A model generated the notes under the pieces. That model saw only the letters and a list, made by a program, of their open reading frames with translations. It was not told where the DNA came from and made no database searches. Positions 1 to 52,251 of a DNA stretch of 64,000 nt are shown piece by piece. The DNA is from Diacronema lutheri (lineage: Eukaryota > Haptophyta > Pavlovophyceae > Pavlovales > Pavlovaceae). The position numbers and the translations under genes are program-made. The DNA lies in the NCBI GenBank assembly GCA_019448385.1, contig JAGTXO010000070.1:1-64000 (forward strand), written 5' to 3'. How positions within the stretch are numbered: position 1 is the stretch's first letter; the number at the start of each line of letters is the position of its first letter.

Positions 1-705
1 CCTGACCCTGACCCTGACCCTGACCCTGACCCTGACCCTGACCCTGACCCTGACCCTGACCCTGACCCTGACCCTGACCCTGACCCTGACCCTGACCCTG
101 ACCCTGACCCTGACCCTGACCCTGACCCTGACCCTGACCTGACCCTGACCCTGACCCTGACCCTGACCCTGACCCTGACCCTGACCCTGACCCTGACCCT
201 GACCCTGACCCTGACCCTGACCCTGACCCTGACCCTGACCCTGACCCTGACCCTGACCCTGACCCTGACCCTGACCCTGACCCTAACCCTGACCCTAACC
301 CTGACCCTGACCCTGACCCTGACCCTGACCCTAACCCTAACCCTAACCCTAACCCTAACCCTGACCCTGACCCTGACCTGACCCTGACCCTACCCTACCC
401 CTGACCCTGACCCTGACCCTGACCCTGACCCTGACCCTGACCCTGAACCTGACCCTGACCTGAACGACCGGACCCTAACCCTGACCCTCACCCTCACCCT
501 CACCCTCACCCTGACCCTGACCCTGACCCTGACCCTGACCCTGACCCTAACCCTAACCCTAACCCTGACCCTGACCCTGACCCTGACCCTGACCCTGACC
601 CTGACCCTGACCCTGAACCTGAACCTGACCCTAACCCTAACCCTGACCCTCACCCTCACCCTCACCCTGACCCTCGCCCTCACCCTGACCCTCACCCTCT
701 CATCC
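1..705. repeat. Telomeric repeat tract, left chromosome end
   Basis: The window opens with hexamer repeats that are mostly CCCTGA, interspersed with blocks of canonical CCCTAA (about 283-360 and 545-565) and, towards the inside, CCCTCA (about 485-515 and 650-690). The C-rich strand runs 5' to 3' inward, the orientation expected for a left chromosome end, so the G-strand would read TCAGGG/TTAGGG. A few units are broken (CCCTGACCTGA, CCTGAACCTGA). Any open frame here is repeat-derived. The inner border fades into degenerate CCCT-rich sequence up to about 750. Confidence 0.93.
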
Positions 706-22768: not shown

Positions 22769-25700
22769 TTAGGAGCGCCAGTACTGCGCCCAGCGGTGGA
22801 TGGTCTCGGTGACCTGCGGAAAGAGCGCCGAGACCGAGTCGTTGATCACCTGCTGGAAGAAGTGCACCGCCTCCTCATCGCTCAGATCGAGGCGGAAGCG
22901 CTCCTGCAACTTTGCAATGTCGTGCTCCGAGCCGAGGTCGTGGATGCCCGCGTCGACCATCAGCGTAAAGAGGTTGCTGATCAGGGCTGACGACTTGCGC
23001 AGCAGGTTGAACGCCTGCGCGCACCGAGCGGCACGGCGGACGGCCGAGCGCGAGAGGTGAGGGCAGGATGGCAGAACGGCAGCCATGAGGCCACAGCAGC
23101 TCGGTCGGTGGGTGAGGGCAGGATGGCAGAACGGCAGCCATGAGGCCACAGCAGCTCGGTCGGTGGGTGAGGGCAGGATGGCAGAATGGCAGCCATGAGG
23201 CCACAGCAGCTCGGTCGGTGGGTGAGGGCAGGATGGCAGAATGGCAGCCATGAGGCCACAGCAGCTCGGTCGGTGGGTGAGGGCAGGATGGCAGAACGGC
23301 AGCCATGAGGCCACAGCAGCTCGGTCGGTGGGTGAGGGCAGGATGGCAGAACGGCAGCCATGAGGCCACAGCAGCTCGGTCGGTGGGTGAGGGCAGGATG
23401 GCAGAACGGCAGCCATGAGGCCACAGCAGCTCGGTCGGTGGGTGAGGGCAGGATGGCAGAATGGCAGCCATGAGGCCACAGCAGCTCGGTCGGTGGGTGA
23501 GGGCAGGATGGCAGAATGGCAGCCATGAGGCCACAGCAGCTCGGTCGGTGGGTGAGGGCAGGATGGCAGAACGGCAGCCATGAGGCCACAGCAGCTCGGT
23601 CGGTGGGTGAGGGCAGGATGGCAGAATGGCAGCCATGAGGCCACAGCAGCTCGGTCGGTGGGTGAGGGCGGGATGGCAGAATGGCAGCCATGAGGCCACA
23701 GCAGCTCGGACGGTGGGTGAGGGCAGGATGGCAGAATGGCAGCCATGAGGCCACAGCAGCTCGGTCGGTGGGTGAGGGCAGGATGGCAGAATGGCAGCCA
23801 TGAGGCCACAGCAGCTCGGTCGGTGGGTGAGGGCGGGATGGCAGAATGGCAGCCATGAGGCCACAGCAGCTCGGTCGGTGGGTGAGGGCAGGATGGCAGA
23901 ATGGCAGCCATGAGGCCACAGCAGCTCGGTCGGTGGGTGAGGGCAGGATGGCAGAACGGCAGCCATGAGGCCACAGCAGCTCGGTCGGTGGGTGAGGGCA
24001 GGATGGCAGAACGGCAGCCATGAGGCCACAGCAGCTCGGTCGGTGGGTGAGGGCAGGATGGCAGAACGGCAGCCATGAGGCCACAGCAGCTCGGTCGGTG
24101 GGTGAGGGCAGGATGGCAGAACGGCAGCCATGAGGCCACAGCAGCTCGGTCGGTGGGTGAGGGCAGGATGGCAGAACGGCAGCCATGAGGCCACAGCAGC
24201 TCGGTCGGTGGGTGAGGGCAGGATGGCAGAACGGCAGCCATGAGGCCACAGCAGCTCGGTCGGTGGGTGAGGGCAGGATGGCAGAACGGCAGCCATGAGG
24301 CCACAGCAGCTCGGTCGGTGGGTGAGGGCGGCAGGCGGCAGGGGTGGGGGCTGAGCGGCCGAAACGCGCGGCGCGTGGCGCGTGGCGCGTGGCGCTCGCC
24401 TCGCAGCACGTCGCCTTGAAGTCGTGGTAGTCGGCGGAATGCGCGCCGCCCATCGCCTCGACCATCTCGCGGCACAGCTTCATCGGCGGCGGCAGCGGCT
24501 TCGGATCCCTGCCCAATATGTACCCAAAGTCGATGTGGAAAAGCTCGCCCCCCGTGGTCAGCATCAAATTGTCCAAATGCCTGTCGCCCACGGAGAGGAG
24601 ATAGGTGATCACACAGTAGCCCGCGCAGCTCTTCACAAAGGCGTCGAGCACATCCGGCCTGATCCCGTAACGGCCGCTCTCGCTCGGGTGGTGCGCGCGC
24701 AGGAACTGGCGGATGTCGCCGCGGTACTGCGCGAGCACGTCGGCGAGCGCGAAGGAGCGGTCGACGACCTGCACAATGCCCTCGCGGCAGCCCGTGGGTA
24801 GAACCATGTACGGCGTCAGCCGCAGGTCGAAGCCCTCGCGTTTGAGCAGCGCGTCCATCAGCGCGACAACCTGCGTGACGAGCTGGTCCTGCCGCAGGTC
24901 ATCGCCCGATTTAAAAATGATCCGGTACAGCGACGCGTCCGCGCGAGCGAGCCGGCGCGGCGGCGGGCGCCCGCCGCCACCGCCACGGCTGGCGGCGCCG
25001 GCGGGCGCGGCAGCGGCGGGCGCGGCGGCGGTCGCGGCCGCCGCTGCGCCGCGCTCGTCCACGTCCGCATGCTCGTCCAGCGGCGTGTCGGGCTCATCGT
25101 CGTCGCACACGCGCAGGCAGATGCCAAGCGGTGAGAGCGCCGATTTATAAATCGTGCAGCCCTCGCACAGCACGCCAGTGGCGCGGACGGTCGGGTCGAT
25201 GGGCAGCGGCAGCGCCGGCTGCCCGTCGCACGGCGCAAGCGCGCGCAACAGCTCGCTCCCCTCCGCACCGAGCTGCGCGCGCAGTCGCTCCACCTTGCGC
25301 GGACGCACCTCAGCCGACGCGCGCACGGCGCGCGACAGAGCGGAGAGCGCGCGCACAAAGGCCACCTGCCGGCCGAGCGCGCGCACGGTGCGCCGGCCGG
25401 CAGCCGTGCGGCCGAGCGCGCCGAGCAGCGCGCGGTGCACGCGCTGGAACATGCCGCCCGCGCTGCCCAGCGGCGCCTCGTCCGCGTCCGCGTCGGCGGC
25501 GGCGGCCGCGTCGGCGTCGGCGGCCACCGTCGCCGCATCGCGCGGCGCGGGCGCGGCGCCTGCCGCCGCGGCCGCCGCCTTCGCCGCCGCCGCCCTCGCC
25601 GCGCGCACGCCGCCGTCCTGCGCGCCGTCGGCCGCTGCCCACGCCGCCGCCGAGCCGCCGTCCGCACCCGCGAGCAGCCCCGCCGCCATGCGCGCGTGCC

Positions 25701-45586: not shown

Positions 45587-47853
45587 ATGTCGTCGAGCCC
45601 CGCCCGCGAGGCGCTGCTCAAGAAGCAGGGTGCGTATGGCAAGATCAAGACGCACGGCGAGTCAAAGCTGTCGCAATTGTCGCACCTCGACGAGGTGGCG
45701 TACGCGCTCTACTACAAGCTTTCGGGCGGGCTCGTCTCCAAGCTCGCCGTGACGGACGAGGACACGCGCTTCTGCGACGACATCCTCGGCTCGGTCTCGC
45801 GCTCCTTTGCGGCGGTAATCCGGCAGCTGCCCGAGAAGTGCTGCCTGGACGTGATGATCTTTTACCTCGTTCTGCGCGCGCTCGACACGATTGAGGACGA
45901 TATGACCGCCTTTGGCAAGGACAACGCCGTCAAGGTGAAGCACCTCAAGGAGTTTCACAAGGTGCGCGCGGCGGATCGGCGCGCGCACCCGTGCGTGCCG
46001 GAGGCCGCCTGCGCCACGGCGCCACGCTTCTGATCGCGCGCGCGCGAGCGTGCAGGGCATGCGATGGCGCGCCGCCACCGCGCGCGGCGTGCACCGCACC
46101 CGCCGTCGCGCGCGCCGCGTCCCGCGCTCATCGCATGCCCTACCTTATAACGGGGCGGGGGGGGGGGGGGGGGGGGGGTTGCGCCACCGCACGCGCAGCC
46201 GTCGCGCGCGCCGCGTCCCGACGTCCCGCGCTCACGCGCGCGCGGCTGCGCGCGCGCGTCGCGCGCGCTCGGCGGCGCGCGCGCGCCACGCCGCTCAGAC
46301 GGCGCTCGAGGACGCGCAGTGGAGGATGGACGGCGTGGGCGAGGGCGACGAGCAGAAGCTGCTGCAGCAGTTCTGCCGGTGCACGCGCGTCTTCCAAGGC
46401 CTCGAGCCAAAGCCGCGCGCGGTGATCGCAGACGTGACGCGGCGCATGGCCGACGGGATGGCCGAGTTTGTCGGCAAGGACCTGGGCGAGGGCACGCAGA
46501 CAATTGACGAGTACAACCGTTACTGCTATTACGTCGCCGGCCTGGTGGGCGAGGGCCTCACGCGCCTCTTCCACGCGTGCGGGTACGAGAGCGCCCAATT
46601 CGAGCAGAGGGCGCTCGACCCGGCGCTGGTCACCGCGCAGCACAAGCAGGCGAGGGCGCGCCCGCGCGTGCGCGAGCGGGCGCTCGTCCCGCGTTGGCGC
46701 CGCCAGCGCCGCGCGGCCGGCGCGCCAGCGTCTTGGCGCTTCCTCAACACGGCGCCGCCGGCCACCGCGGCCCCCGCGTCCCCGCGCGCGCGTGCGCTGT
46801 GTGCGCAGGGCGGCCTCGACAAGTCGATGGGCCTCTTCCTGCAGAAGACGAACATTATCCGCGACTACCTCGAGGACTACGTCGACGGCCGCGCGTTCTG
46901 GCCGAAGGAGGTGCGCGGCGGTTAGGGTTAGGGTTAGGGTTAGGGTTAGGGATAGGGTTAGGGATAGGGATAGGGATAGGGTGCGCGGCGGGGGCGGACG
47001 CGGCGCGGCGGGCGGACGGGCGGGCGGTGCGTGCGGCGCGGCGCAGCGCCGCGCGCGCCTCGCGGCCGACCCGCATCGTCGCGCGATGGGCGGCGCGTGC
47101 GCTGCTTTGGTTTTCCCGCGCAAATGCCCCGCTCTGCCGGCGGTCTGCGTGTGGGCAGGTGTGGTCCCTGTACGCGACGGACACAAAGTCGCTCGGCGAG
47201 TTTGCCTACCCGAAGCCCGGCTCGCAGGTCGAGGCGCGGGCGCTCGCGTTGCTCAACCACCTCGTGTGCGACGCGCTCGAGCTCGTGCCCGACTGTCTGT
47301 CCTACATGACGCTGATCACGCACCCGGACATCTTCCGCTTCTGCGCGATCCCGCAGGCGCGCGCCGCACCCGTCACGCGGCGCCTCGCGCGCGCGGCGCC
47401 TTCCGCCGCGCGCGCGCCGCGCGCGGCGTCCGTGCGCGCGACCGTGAGACCGTGGCGTGACACCGTGACACCTGGCGTGACACCGTGACACTGTGACTGC
47501 CGCCGCCGCTGCGCCCGCGGTTGCGAGCGCAGGTGATGGCTATCGCCACGCTGGACAAGGTGTACAACAACAAGGACGTGTTCAGCGGCGTCGTGAAGGT
47601 GCGCAAGGGGCTCGCGGTGAAGATGATTATGACGTGCGGCACAATGGGCGGGATCAAGGCGTGGTTCCACGAGTTCGCCGTCGAGATTAAACGGCGCACG
47701 CCGCCGAGCGACCCGTCGGCGGTGCGCACGTACGCGGCGTGCGACCGAATCCTCACGCTCACCGCGGACGCGGCGCCGTCGCCTTTGCGCGCGGCCATGA
47801 TTCTTGTGCTCGCCATTATCGTCGCCGCCGTCGCGTATGCTCAGATCGCGTGA
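45587..47853 (+). CDS. SQS: Squalene synthase (farnesyl-diphosphate farnesyltransferase)
   Basis: Condenses two farnesyl diphosphates to squalene, the first committed step of sterol synthesis, at the ER membrane. Exons 45587-45961, 46299-46649, 46809-46910, 47159-47356 and 47533-47853 give 448 aa, the usual size. Signatures: SRSFAAVIRQLP, the first Asp-rich motif LRALDTIEDDMT, YCYYVAGLVGEGLTRLF, the second Asp-rich motif KTNIIRDYLEDY, FCAIPQ/VMAIATL, and a C-terminal anchor helix (AAMILVLAIIVAAVAYAQIA). Junction IPQ/VMAIATL is conserved and requires a GC donor (CAG/GCGCGC). The junction after AQHKQ may also use GC (GCGAGG) unless a GTGCGC 18 bp downstream is used. Intron 3 contains telomeric repeats. 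Confidence 0.94.
46157..46178. repeat. Poly-G(22) in squalene synthase intron 1
   Basis: A run of 22 G, preceded by CGGGGC, on the sense strand of the first intron. Potential RNA or DNA quadruplex close to the middle of the intron. Confidence 0.85.
46911..46990. repeat. Interstitial telomeric repeat flanked by 10-bp direct repeat
   Basis: Sixty bp of TTAGGG and ATAGGG hexamers (46921-46980) lie between two exact copies of GTGCGCGGCG (46911-46920 and 46981-46990). The first copy begins at the intron donor. This is telomere-type DNA inserted within intron 3 of squalene synthase, with what looks like a target duplication. Confidence 0.95.
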
Positions 47854-50100: not shown

Positions 50101-52251
50101 CTATCGCCTTTGCGCCTTGAGCATCTGCTCAACCTGCGCCTGCATCTGCGTGTGCACCTGAGCGAAGAGCTCCTCCTTCTCGACGAGGTTGCGCTCCGCC
50201 TGGAGGCACGCGCACAGGGCGCAGCAGATAGCGCGCGCACGGAGGGCGGGAGGGTGCGCTCGCGTGAGCGCGGCGCGACGGCGGCACGCGGGGCTTGCGG
50301 ACAGCTGGCGGAGCGCGGCACCTCGAGCCACCAGCCTGGCACACGCACAGGGGGCAGCTGGCGGAGCGCGGCGCCTCGAGCCACCCGCCTGGCACACGCA
50401 CAGGGGGCAGCTGGCGGAGCGCGGCGCCTCGAGCCACCAGCCTGGCACACGCACAGGGGGCAGCTGGCGGAGCGCGGCGCCTCGAGCCACCCGCCTGGCA
50501 CACGCACAGGGGGCAGCTGGCGGAGCGCGGCGCCTCGAGCCACCAGCCTGGCACACGCACAGGGGGCAGCTGGCGGAGCGCGGCGCCTCGAGCCACCAGC
50601 CTGGCACACGCACAGGGGGCAGCTGGCGGAGCGCGGCGCCTCGAGCCACCAGCCTGGCACACGCACAGGGGGCAGCTGGCGGAGCGCGGCGCCGGCCACG
50701 CGCGGCGCGCACCTGCGCCGCGCGCTCGACGAGCGCCTCGTTGTCGACGCGGAGCGCGTCGGCCGCGTCGCGCGCGTCTGCCTCACGTTCGTCCGCCTCG
50801 CGCAGCCGCAGCTCGAGGTCCTCGGCGGCACGCTGCAGCCGCGCAATCTCCTGCGCCGCGCGGCGGGCGGGACGCGAGGCCGGCCAGTTTCGGCGCAACG
50901 AGTGCGAGCGGGTGAGCCGCCCGGGCGGTCGAATTGGCGAACGCGCCACCTGCCTCGCCGCGTGCCACGCGTGCACGCGCGCGCGCGCGCACGGGCGGCT
51001 CACCCGCTCGCACTCGTCGGCGTGCCTCACGTGCTGCTGCAGCTTGCGTTCGGCCGTTGCAAGCGCGCGATCCGCCGCGCCGCTGCCCGCCGCCGCGCCG
51101 CGCGCCGCTGCCGTTGCCGCGAGCGAGGCGCGAACAAAGGAGGGATGAGGAGGAGGCAGGGGAAAAGGGGGAAAGGGGGAAAGGGGGAAGGGGGGAAAGG
51201 GGGGAAAGGGGGAAAGGAGAGAAGGGGCGTCAGCCGCGCGCGGTGCGGTGCGGCGCGGCGTGCGCGCGCGTGCGCGCTGCGCGCACCGTCGCGCGCGAGG
51301 CCGACGCCCCACACAACACCCGCCCACGTGCGCAGCGCGTGGCCAATCGAGCCGTCCGCGCGCGCGCGCAGCAGCGCGCGCAGCGCGCCGGCGGCGGCGA
51401 GGCGCGTGGTGGCGCCGAGTTGCAGCTCGTAAGCGTCGATGAGCAAACTGAGCGCAGCCTCGCCAGAGCGGTCGGCGCACAGCCTCGCCTCGGCGGCGGG
51501 CGGCGCGGCGGGCGCGCGCCCGTCGCGCGCGCCGCGTGCCGCCGCCGCGTCCGCCGCGCTCAGCGGATCGCACAGCTCGACAATGCGCGCCGCGTCCTCG
51601 CCGCCCGCCGCCGGGTCGGCCGCGCCGCCGCCCACGCCCGCTGCGTCCGCCGGCGCGCGCGGCGCGTCTGACGGGAGGCGGCGGGAGAAGCGGAAGGCGG
51701 GCGCGAGGCCGCGCGCAGAGAAGACAATGTGCGCGCCGGGCACGAGCGGTTTGCCGTCCGCGCCGCGCCCGCCCGCCGGCGGCGTGCGCGGCGCGCGGCG
51801 CGGCGCGTCGTCGCCGCCAAAGCCGCCGCCACCAAAGCCGCCGCTGCCAAAGCCGCCGCCGCCAAAGCCGCCACCGCCAGCCTCCGTGGTCTCGCCGCCA
51901 AAGCCGCCACCGCCAGCCTCCGTGGTCTCGCCGCCAAAGCCGCCGCCACCAAAGCCGCCGCTGCCAAAGCCGCCGCCGTCCAGCCGAGGCTGCACGCGCG
52001 CGCCGCCGTCGTCGCCGCCGTCGGCGTCGGCGCGCGCGCGCGACCGGCGCGCGGTGGGTGCGCGCGCATCGTCCATGCCGTCCTTGCCGTCCATGCCGTC
52101 CATGCCGTCGTCCTCGTCGGAGAAGGCTTCCTCCTCCTCGTACGCCAGCGCGGCGGCCGCCGCCTGCGCGAGGGGCGATGCATCGAGTTGCGCACCGAGC
52201 GAGCCGAACTGCGTCACGCCCGTTACGCCCGCCGGCGCCGCCCGTGCGAGC

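Follow-up and report, generated by a model that had tools for sequence, protein, structure and literature searches.

The repair of breaks with telomeric repeats has been worked out from the comparison of vertebrate genomes, in which short interstitial telomeric sequences form several classes. Table 1 of PMC2246262 records flank duplication at 6 of 130 interstitial telomeric loci in rodents and at 4 of 25 in primates, while the available portions of PMC7215372 give it for 3 of 66 horse loci, with 2 further cases in complex events, and place an inverted duplication across the block among the complex horse rearrangements. In the rodent and primate work, bases in register with the repeat at the junctions were counted against empty sites and an excess was seen (PMC2246262, available portions). 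Among human interstitial telomeric cases, 31% were found in introns, as expected at random, and an effect on splicing was flagged for testing (PMC7215372, available portions). The telo boxes of plants are a second relevant system; these consist of about one unit, are enriched in 5' UTRs and are tied to the promoters of translation-related genes, and the action of telomerase on free 3' ends has been proposed as their origin (PMC3022908, available portions). A third is the gain of introns with direct repeats, through break repair or through transposon-like insertion; the direct repeats in the vicinity of 213 introns have been surveyed (PMC11782384, available portions). In the literature that was searched, we found no report of interstitial telomeric insertions in Diacronema lutheri or in haptophyte introns.

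Here we describe a telomeric block in an intron of the squalene synthase gene of D. lutheri, a haptophyte instance of an event type that is already known. The analysed stretch of DNA, referred to as the window, comprises bases 1-64000 of contig C21 from an assembly of 43,492,796 bases in 103 contigs; the published assembly of strain NIVA-4/92 is given as 43.503 Mb, 103 contigs and 73.25% GC (PMC8379373, available portions). GC content along the window is 0.68-0.83. Two tandem arrays with 98-99% matches also lie within it, one at 23056-24329 (55-bp unit, 23 copies) and the other at 50302-50693 (53-bp unit, 7 copies).

The preliminary description had recognised the gene as squalene synthase and had placed its 5' splice site at the left copy of a direct repeat, and both points were confirmed by the Pfam and PDB matches given in Table 1. 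The five-exon model runs from ATG to stop, with the borders of introns 1 and 2 not set by homology. At intron 3 the residues FWPKE|VWSLY align without a gap at the join to FWPQEVWSRY of the solved squalene synthase 3vj8, which sets the donor at 46911 and the acceptor end at 47158, for an intron of 248 nt. Among the 40 of 55 candidates scored, the squalene synthase region was single-copy in its own assembly, apart from short GC-rich matches. Intron 4 (47357-47532), whose border is fixed by the conserved FCAIPQ|VMAIATL, starts as CAG|GCGCGC and ends in GCGCAG and is a GC-AG intron; intron 2 may be another.

Table 1. Features of the window and of related loci elsewhere in the assembly (window coordinates, unless a locus is named)
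Feature	Position	Strand	Basis or remark
Terminal telomeric array, TCAGGG-rich variant	1..698	-	Contig C21 end
Squalene synthase gene	45587..47853	+	Five coding exons, ATG to stop; Pfam SQS_PSY 4.8e-43, PDB squalene synthases 2e-78
Squalene synthase exon 3 (GGLDKSMGLFLQKTNIIRDYLEDYVDGRAFWPKE)	46809..46910	+	Pfam and PDB alignment of spliced protein
Left copy of 12-bp direct repeat GGTGCGCGGCGG	46910..46921	+	Read directly; exon/intron border, -1 to +11
Squalene synthase intron 3	46911..47158	+	248 nt (178 nt minus the 70-bp unit); border via solved squalene synthase
Telomeric block, ten hexamers (6 TTAGGG, 4 ATAGGG)	46922..46981	+	Read directly; G-rich strand is sense
Right copy of 12-bp direct repeat GGTGCGCGGCGG	46980..46991	+	Read directly
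Squalene synthase exon 4 (VWSLY...FCAIPQ)	47159..47356	+	Alignment to solved squalene synthases
Intronic loci with CCCTAA as sense strand	L009, L010, L011, L012, L014, L015, L016, L020, L022, L025, L030, L049, L052, L053, L054, L056
Loci within 100 nt of an acceptor	L009, L010, L012, L014, L015, L016, L020, L022, L030, L049, L052, L053
Element ends starting CTAACG[A/G]CGCTT	L009 near 4263, L033 2496, L039 993, L040 3488, L046 4875, L047 2818, L051 349, L059-L061

The 60-bp block of TTAGGG and ATAGGG hexamers that had been described was borne out by direct reading. Its units run as five TTAGGG, one ATAGGG, one TTAGGG and three ATAGGG, and it is situated 46.9 kb from the contig end. The two copies of GGTGCGCGGCGG that flank it, at a spacing (period) of 70 bp, are identical as had been stated, although they measure 12 bp and not 10, because the G at each junction also matches. 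The left copy is made up of the last base of exon 3 and the first 11 bases of intron 3, and about 167 nt of the intron follow the right copy up to the 3' splice site. The final GG of the block is at the same time the first GG of the right copy, and since these bases are common to both, the exact cut point cannot be fixed. Between the two copies there are only hexamers, with no transposon or other element sequence. The claim that the event had duplicated a usable donor, however, did not hold. When the exon is extended to the right copy it reads WPKEVRGG and then meets a stop at once, in frame, so that the right-hand donor copy is not usable for protein. The duplication thus preserved one donor, and the second is of no use for the protein.

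The locus belongs with the interstitial telomeric sequences, being a short array of the host's own repeat at a non-terminal, unique site, with a change in the flank, the 12-bp duplication, that is typical of end repair. Like the short interstitial telomeric sequences of vertebrates, it is an internal short TTAGGG array in which the flank duplication marks a class of insertion. Unlike them, it occurs in a haptophyte host and among intronic loci with a bias of orientation, and it is read from one assembly. The haptophyte case suggests that the process known from vertebrates is older and broader. With the plant telo boxes the blocks of the alga have in common the presence of telomere motifs within genes, for which a telomerase origin has been proposed, but they comprise 2-10 units, many are near splice sites and the genes are unrelated. 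The position in a 5' UTR or promoter that is characteristic of telo boxes does not apply to the squalene synthase block, which lies in intron 3 of a gene read as five exons, although another locus, L017, does precede a start codon. There, 10 bp separate the telomeric block (2499-2520) from the downstream start codon of an open frame, which by eye we take to resemble aldehyde dehydrogenase. As in the described cases of intron gain, the direct repeat touches a splice site; in contrast to those cases, both copies are at one end of the intron and not at its two ends. Creation of the intron by the insertion was set aside, since the left copy spans -1/+11, the right copy follows 70 nt deeper in the intron, and the 3' end is 167 nt beyond.

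The frequency with which such a duplication arises by chance was assessed in several ways. The preliminary description had regarded frequent chance occurrence of the direct repeat in introns nearby as an observation against its reading, and the corresponding search gave the opposite outcome: of 148 GGTGCG sites after base 1000 on both strands, two are followed 40-100 nt downstream by a second copy of their 12-mer; each strand has one such site, that on the + strand being the squalene synthase site. Under a strict null, in which gaps like those of the telomeric blocks were placed at random outside tandem arrays, an abutting exact repeat of at least 11 bp was obtained in 9 of 60,000 placements. 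On the + strand after base 1000, the squalene synthase block is the single place with an exact repeat of 12 bp at spacing 70. With up to one mismatch, TTAGGGTTAGGG was found 24 times in the window (7 in the block and 17 in the terminal array) against an expectation of 0.01. GTGCGCGGCG, on the other hand, was present 10 times in the window against 8.8 expected, and its presence alone means little because the word is common in this GC-rich window. Two looser nulls that keep the tandem arrays gave p = 0.29 (unanchored flank comparison) and p = 0.08 (loosely anchored) for the squalene synthase locus, values that are weaker because short tandem arrays are abundant in the genome and fill both nulls; the verdict on chance relies on the strict test without tandem arrays.

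The hexamers of the block were compared with those at contig ends. The terminal array of C21 contains 78 TCAGGG and 13 TTAGGG, whereas the ends of C29, C30, C44, C47, C83 and C100 are mainly TTAGGG; the block had been described as richer in TTAGGG than the TCAGGG terminal array, which is correct for the C21 end and incorrect for these several others. At 18 sampled contig ends, including C31 and C102, which do not finish in telomeric repeats, the 1,032 hexamers directly after GGG included 405 TAAGGG, 361 TTAGGG, 110 TGAGGG and 107 TCAGGG. As TTAGGG is common at other contig ends, the squalene synthase block carries a common telomere unit of the genome. In contrast, ATAGGG makes up 4 of the 10 units in the block and 0 of the 1,032 at these ends, so that a change after insertion must be assumed; most likely, ATAGGG arose in place through a T to A change and slippage. 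Traces close to ATAGGG were seen at two ends, where C33 breaks off in GGGATA and C40 carries one GGGTATAGGG. Differing telomere-like units were also observed at the contig ends of L018, L021, L023, L028, L029, L031, L032, L034-L042 and L055, with TAAGGG/TGAGGG arrays next to TTAGGG at some of them.

Pattern searches of the assembly for TTAGGG arrays, in each of which the reversed control pattern matched at most once, returned many contig ends and about thirty internal places among the matches listed; most of the lists are exhaustive for the pattern used, but the patterns need unbroken hexamers and certain flank letters, and so miss blocks that are old, degenerate or differently bordered. A set of 16 loci was defined by at least three hexamers, a position away from contig ends and the absence of a transposon, with the squalene synthase locus included. 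Left out of this set were the loci at or near contig ends, the transposon-associated L019, L023, L033 and L059-L061, the locus L027, which has as its neighbour a degenerate GGGTGA/GGGTAA array some 7 kb away from a contig end, and nine two-unit loci (L049-L054, L056-L058), which were used for orientation. Gene names were given by Pfam (Fumble, Lon_C, AARP2CN (Bms1), RsmB/F methyltransferase, Rep_fac-A_C, RabGAP-TBC, polyprenyl_synt, Ion_trans).

Adjoining direct duplications were present at 5 of the 16 loci, compared with 8% expected under the loose anchored null (p = 0.007). Besides the squalene synthase locus these are L011 in pantothenate kinase, with an exact duplication of 40 bp; L015, where 28 bp are duplicated with a single indel; L026, with 14-16 bp at a distance of 3-5 nt from the block; and L030 in Lon protease, where the duplication of 36 bp contains one mismatch. 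In L011, around 2400-2680, the duplicated piece consists of an exon end with its donor in three copies, with two blocks between them, and degenerate telomere-like units stand beside perfect ones. In L030, around 2500-2800, an acceptor with the start of its exon is present in four copies with blocks between. By a strict exact rule with an offset of at most 1, L011 and the squalene synthase locus are the only ones of the 16 to pass; L026 passes at an offset of at most 5, while L015 and L030 fail on account of one indel or mismatch and were counted from the loosely anchored comparison. L026 and L030 may be tandem duplications of a unit holding the block, which they resemble more than target duplications. 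An inverted duplication across the block (23/24 bp) was seen in L024 at 2535-2632, of the kind mentioned above for the horse. When set against the 13 of 221 duplications in the rodent, primate and horse sets, pooled from the available portions of those reports, 5 of 16 represents an excess (p = 0.004); on the same basis, with the unit duplications L026 and L030 left out, 3 of 16 (p = 0.08) is not a significant excess over vertebrates.

From the block, its exact duplication, its position in the intron and the parallels in the genome, all of which are observed directly, we infer that the block is probably a short interstitial telomeric sequence left by the repair of a staggered break with telomeric repeats, most likely by telomerase. 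In this sequence of events, intron 3 of squalene synthase would already have existed when a double-strand break struck its 5' end and left a stagger of about 10-12 nt. One end would then have been extended with TTAGGG units, most likely by telomerase, and fill-in and joining would have turned the stagger into the 12-bp duplication. Since the donor lies within the duplicated segment, its left copy would have been preserved, and the presumably neutral insert would be removed along with the intron; the ATAGGG units would reflect later mutation and slippage. The abutting repeat beyond chance, the identity of the hexamers with the TTAGGG of other contig ends, the duplications at 5 of 16 loci and the correspondence with the classes of published vertebrate insertions all argue for break repair. 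Against break repair alone stands the strong orientation bias of the intronic loci, discussed below, which random break repair does not predict.

Telomerase-associated break repair with target duplication was also the interpretation put forward in the preliminary description. Insertion at a break is still the best reading, and the parallels and the vertebrate cases fit it, but the junctions did not display the excess expected of telomerase. In 18 blocks from the 16 loci, two of which hold two blocks each, the bases in register before the first hexamer, read on the G-rich strand, numbered at least one, two and three in 16, 13 and 11 blocks, respectively. A random starting phase of the hexamer predicts 16.2, 13.6 and 10.8 of 18, so that in these 18 blocks of one genome, counted at the filled sites, there is no excess of in-register bases over random phase. 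The flank sequence alone predicts 1.09 of 18 with at least three such bases, and in-register junctions were at one stage considered as evidence for telomerase; this was dropped, as the expectation of 1.09 ignores a start in any phase, for which 11 were seen against 10.8. An excess of junction microhomology is on record for the vertebrate loci and was not seen in these 18 blocks. At the squalene synthase locus itself the duplicated target ends in GG, with 2 bases in register. The junctions neither support nor exclude telomerase, and its role as the source of the units is suggested by analogy with published precedent.

Alternatively, instead of new synthesis by telomerase, an existing stretch of telomere could have been copied or captured as templated filler during end joining, with a staggered break again giving the duplication. 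Flank duplication together with filler is known from ordinary break repair, and the anatomy predicted is the same; the lack of an excess of in-register bases over random phase agrees with such a source, as do the degenerate telomere-like units beside perfect ones at several loci, including L011. Most of the blocks, however, are perfect short runs of TTAGGG, in contrast to the mixed TAAGGG, TGAGGG or TCAGGG arrays at several of the sampled ends, and we regard copied or captured telomere as possible but somewhat unlikely.

The orientation of the blocks within introns was analysed for the internal loci, which were read for exons and splice borders; 18 of them fall in introns. Outside this set were L024 and L026, which were not placed in genes, L017 and L057, which are by a start codon, and L050, L051 and L058. 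CCCTAA was the sense strand at 16 of the 18 loci (binomial p = 0.0013; Table 1), and TTAGGG at the squalene synthase locus, where the block is at the donor, and at L013, for which the intron call is weak. All 12 loci whose distance to the 3' splice site is at most 100 nt were CCCTAA-sense (p = 0.0005). The intron calls at L009, L010, L012, L022 and L053 were made by reading frame and splice motif, with no Pfam match above the cut-off, and that at L052 on the same two grounds; at L025, a Nucleoporin_C match fell short of the cut-off. With loci anchored by a Pfam match above the cut-off, the ratio was 8 CCCTAA-sense to 1, the exception being squalene synthase (p = 0.04), or 9 to 1 when L015, with a Myb match just above the cut-off, is counted. 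Proximity to the acceptor was assessed as well, and 9 of the 16 loci within 100 nt of one would correspond to a p from 3e-6 to 3e-4 (calculated from published gene counts with an assumed 2.5-5 introns per multi-intron gene and with only non-coding DNA taken as target). Blocks near acceptors are often 8-40 nt before the intron end, and those of L012, L014 and L049 at 8-12 nt.

With many scars near splice sites in a common orientation, this compact genome of 73% GC allows one to ask whether such blocks are tolerated or act as splicing signals. Whatever their origin, with any form of which this is compatible, the blocks could have been retained for splicing, with CCCTAAC supplying a CTAAC branch point and a pyrimidine tract, and TTAGGG near a donor supplying G-runs. 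The usual place of the branch point is 18-40 nt from the intron end, and 7 of the 10 acceptors examined have the adenine of a CTAAC or CTGAC at that distance; together with the 16 of 18 and 12 of 12 loci in CCCTAA sense, this speaks for retention. The idea, however, arose from the same data. In addition, CT(A/G)AC is missing from roughly the final 120 nt of squalene synthase introns 1, 3 and 4, so that some introns in this genome do without the motif. The bias is also explained without any use in splicing. Most likely, TTAGGG-sense inserts before acceptors have been removed by selection, because they would add several TTAG false acceptors. It also fits a preference of insertion, in which inserts join more easily, in register, at C-rich tracts before acceptors and at G-rich stretches after donors; the junction test given above (16, 13 and 11 against 16.2, 13.6 and 10.8 of 18) neither supports nor excludes this preference. 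Retention for a use in splicing is improbable. It could further be envisaged that telomeric inserts are a recurrent source of splicing signals, filtered or adopted as working 3' intron ends in unrelated genes, in each observed case in the sense that supplies CTAAC and not in the one that would bring TTAG false acceptors, the rare TTAGGG-sense insert surviving at a donor; this broader proposal is tentative, and we consider it rather doubtful.

Retrotransposition was also considered as the origin of the block, either of a severely truncated non-LTR element or of telomeric RNA, which target-primed reverse transcription would insert with a target duplication of 10-15 bp. The 12 bp at the squalene synthase locus are of this size, the genome does contain target duplications that enclose short element ends (CTAACG[A/G]CGCTT...), and at L033 an end of this kind is fused with TTAGGG units. 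No element sequence is present between the copies at the squalene synthase locus or at L015, however, and other telomeric loci have duplications of 28-40 bp or none that was found, so that retrotransposition appears quite improbable. A transposon origin of the squalene synthase block was set aside, with only hexamers between the copies. Finally, a home-grown hexamer microsatellite next to a coincidental repeat in GC-rich sequence, for which the commonness of GTGCGCGGCG might speak, is very improbable in view of the excess of TTAGGGTTAGGG, the unique repeat at spacing 70, the 2 of 148 sites and 9 of 60,000 placements, and the fact that the hexamer is the telomere repeat of the genome itself.

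The short element ends (Table 1) are dispersed in the assembly. In L009 one of 49 bp lies between 11-bp target duplications, and in L059 one of 29 bp between 10-bp copies. The 22-bp repeat TACTAACGACGCTTTCCGACGG, of which there are 175 exact copies in the genome, was considered as an intron-like element with its own branch site; this was dropped, as the copies look like short retroelement ends between target duplications.
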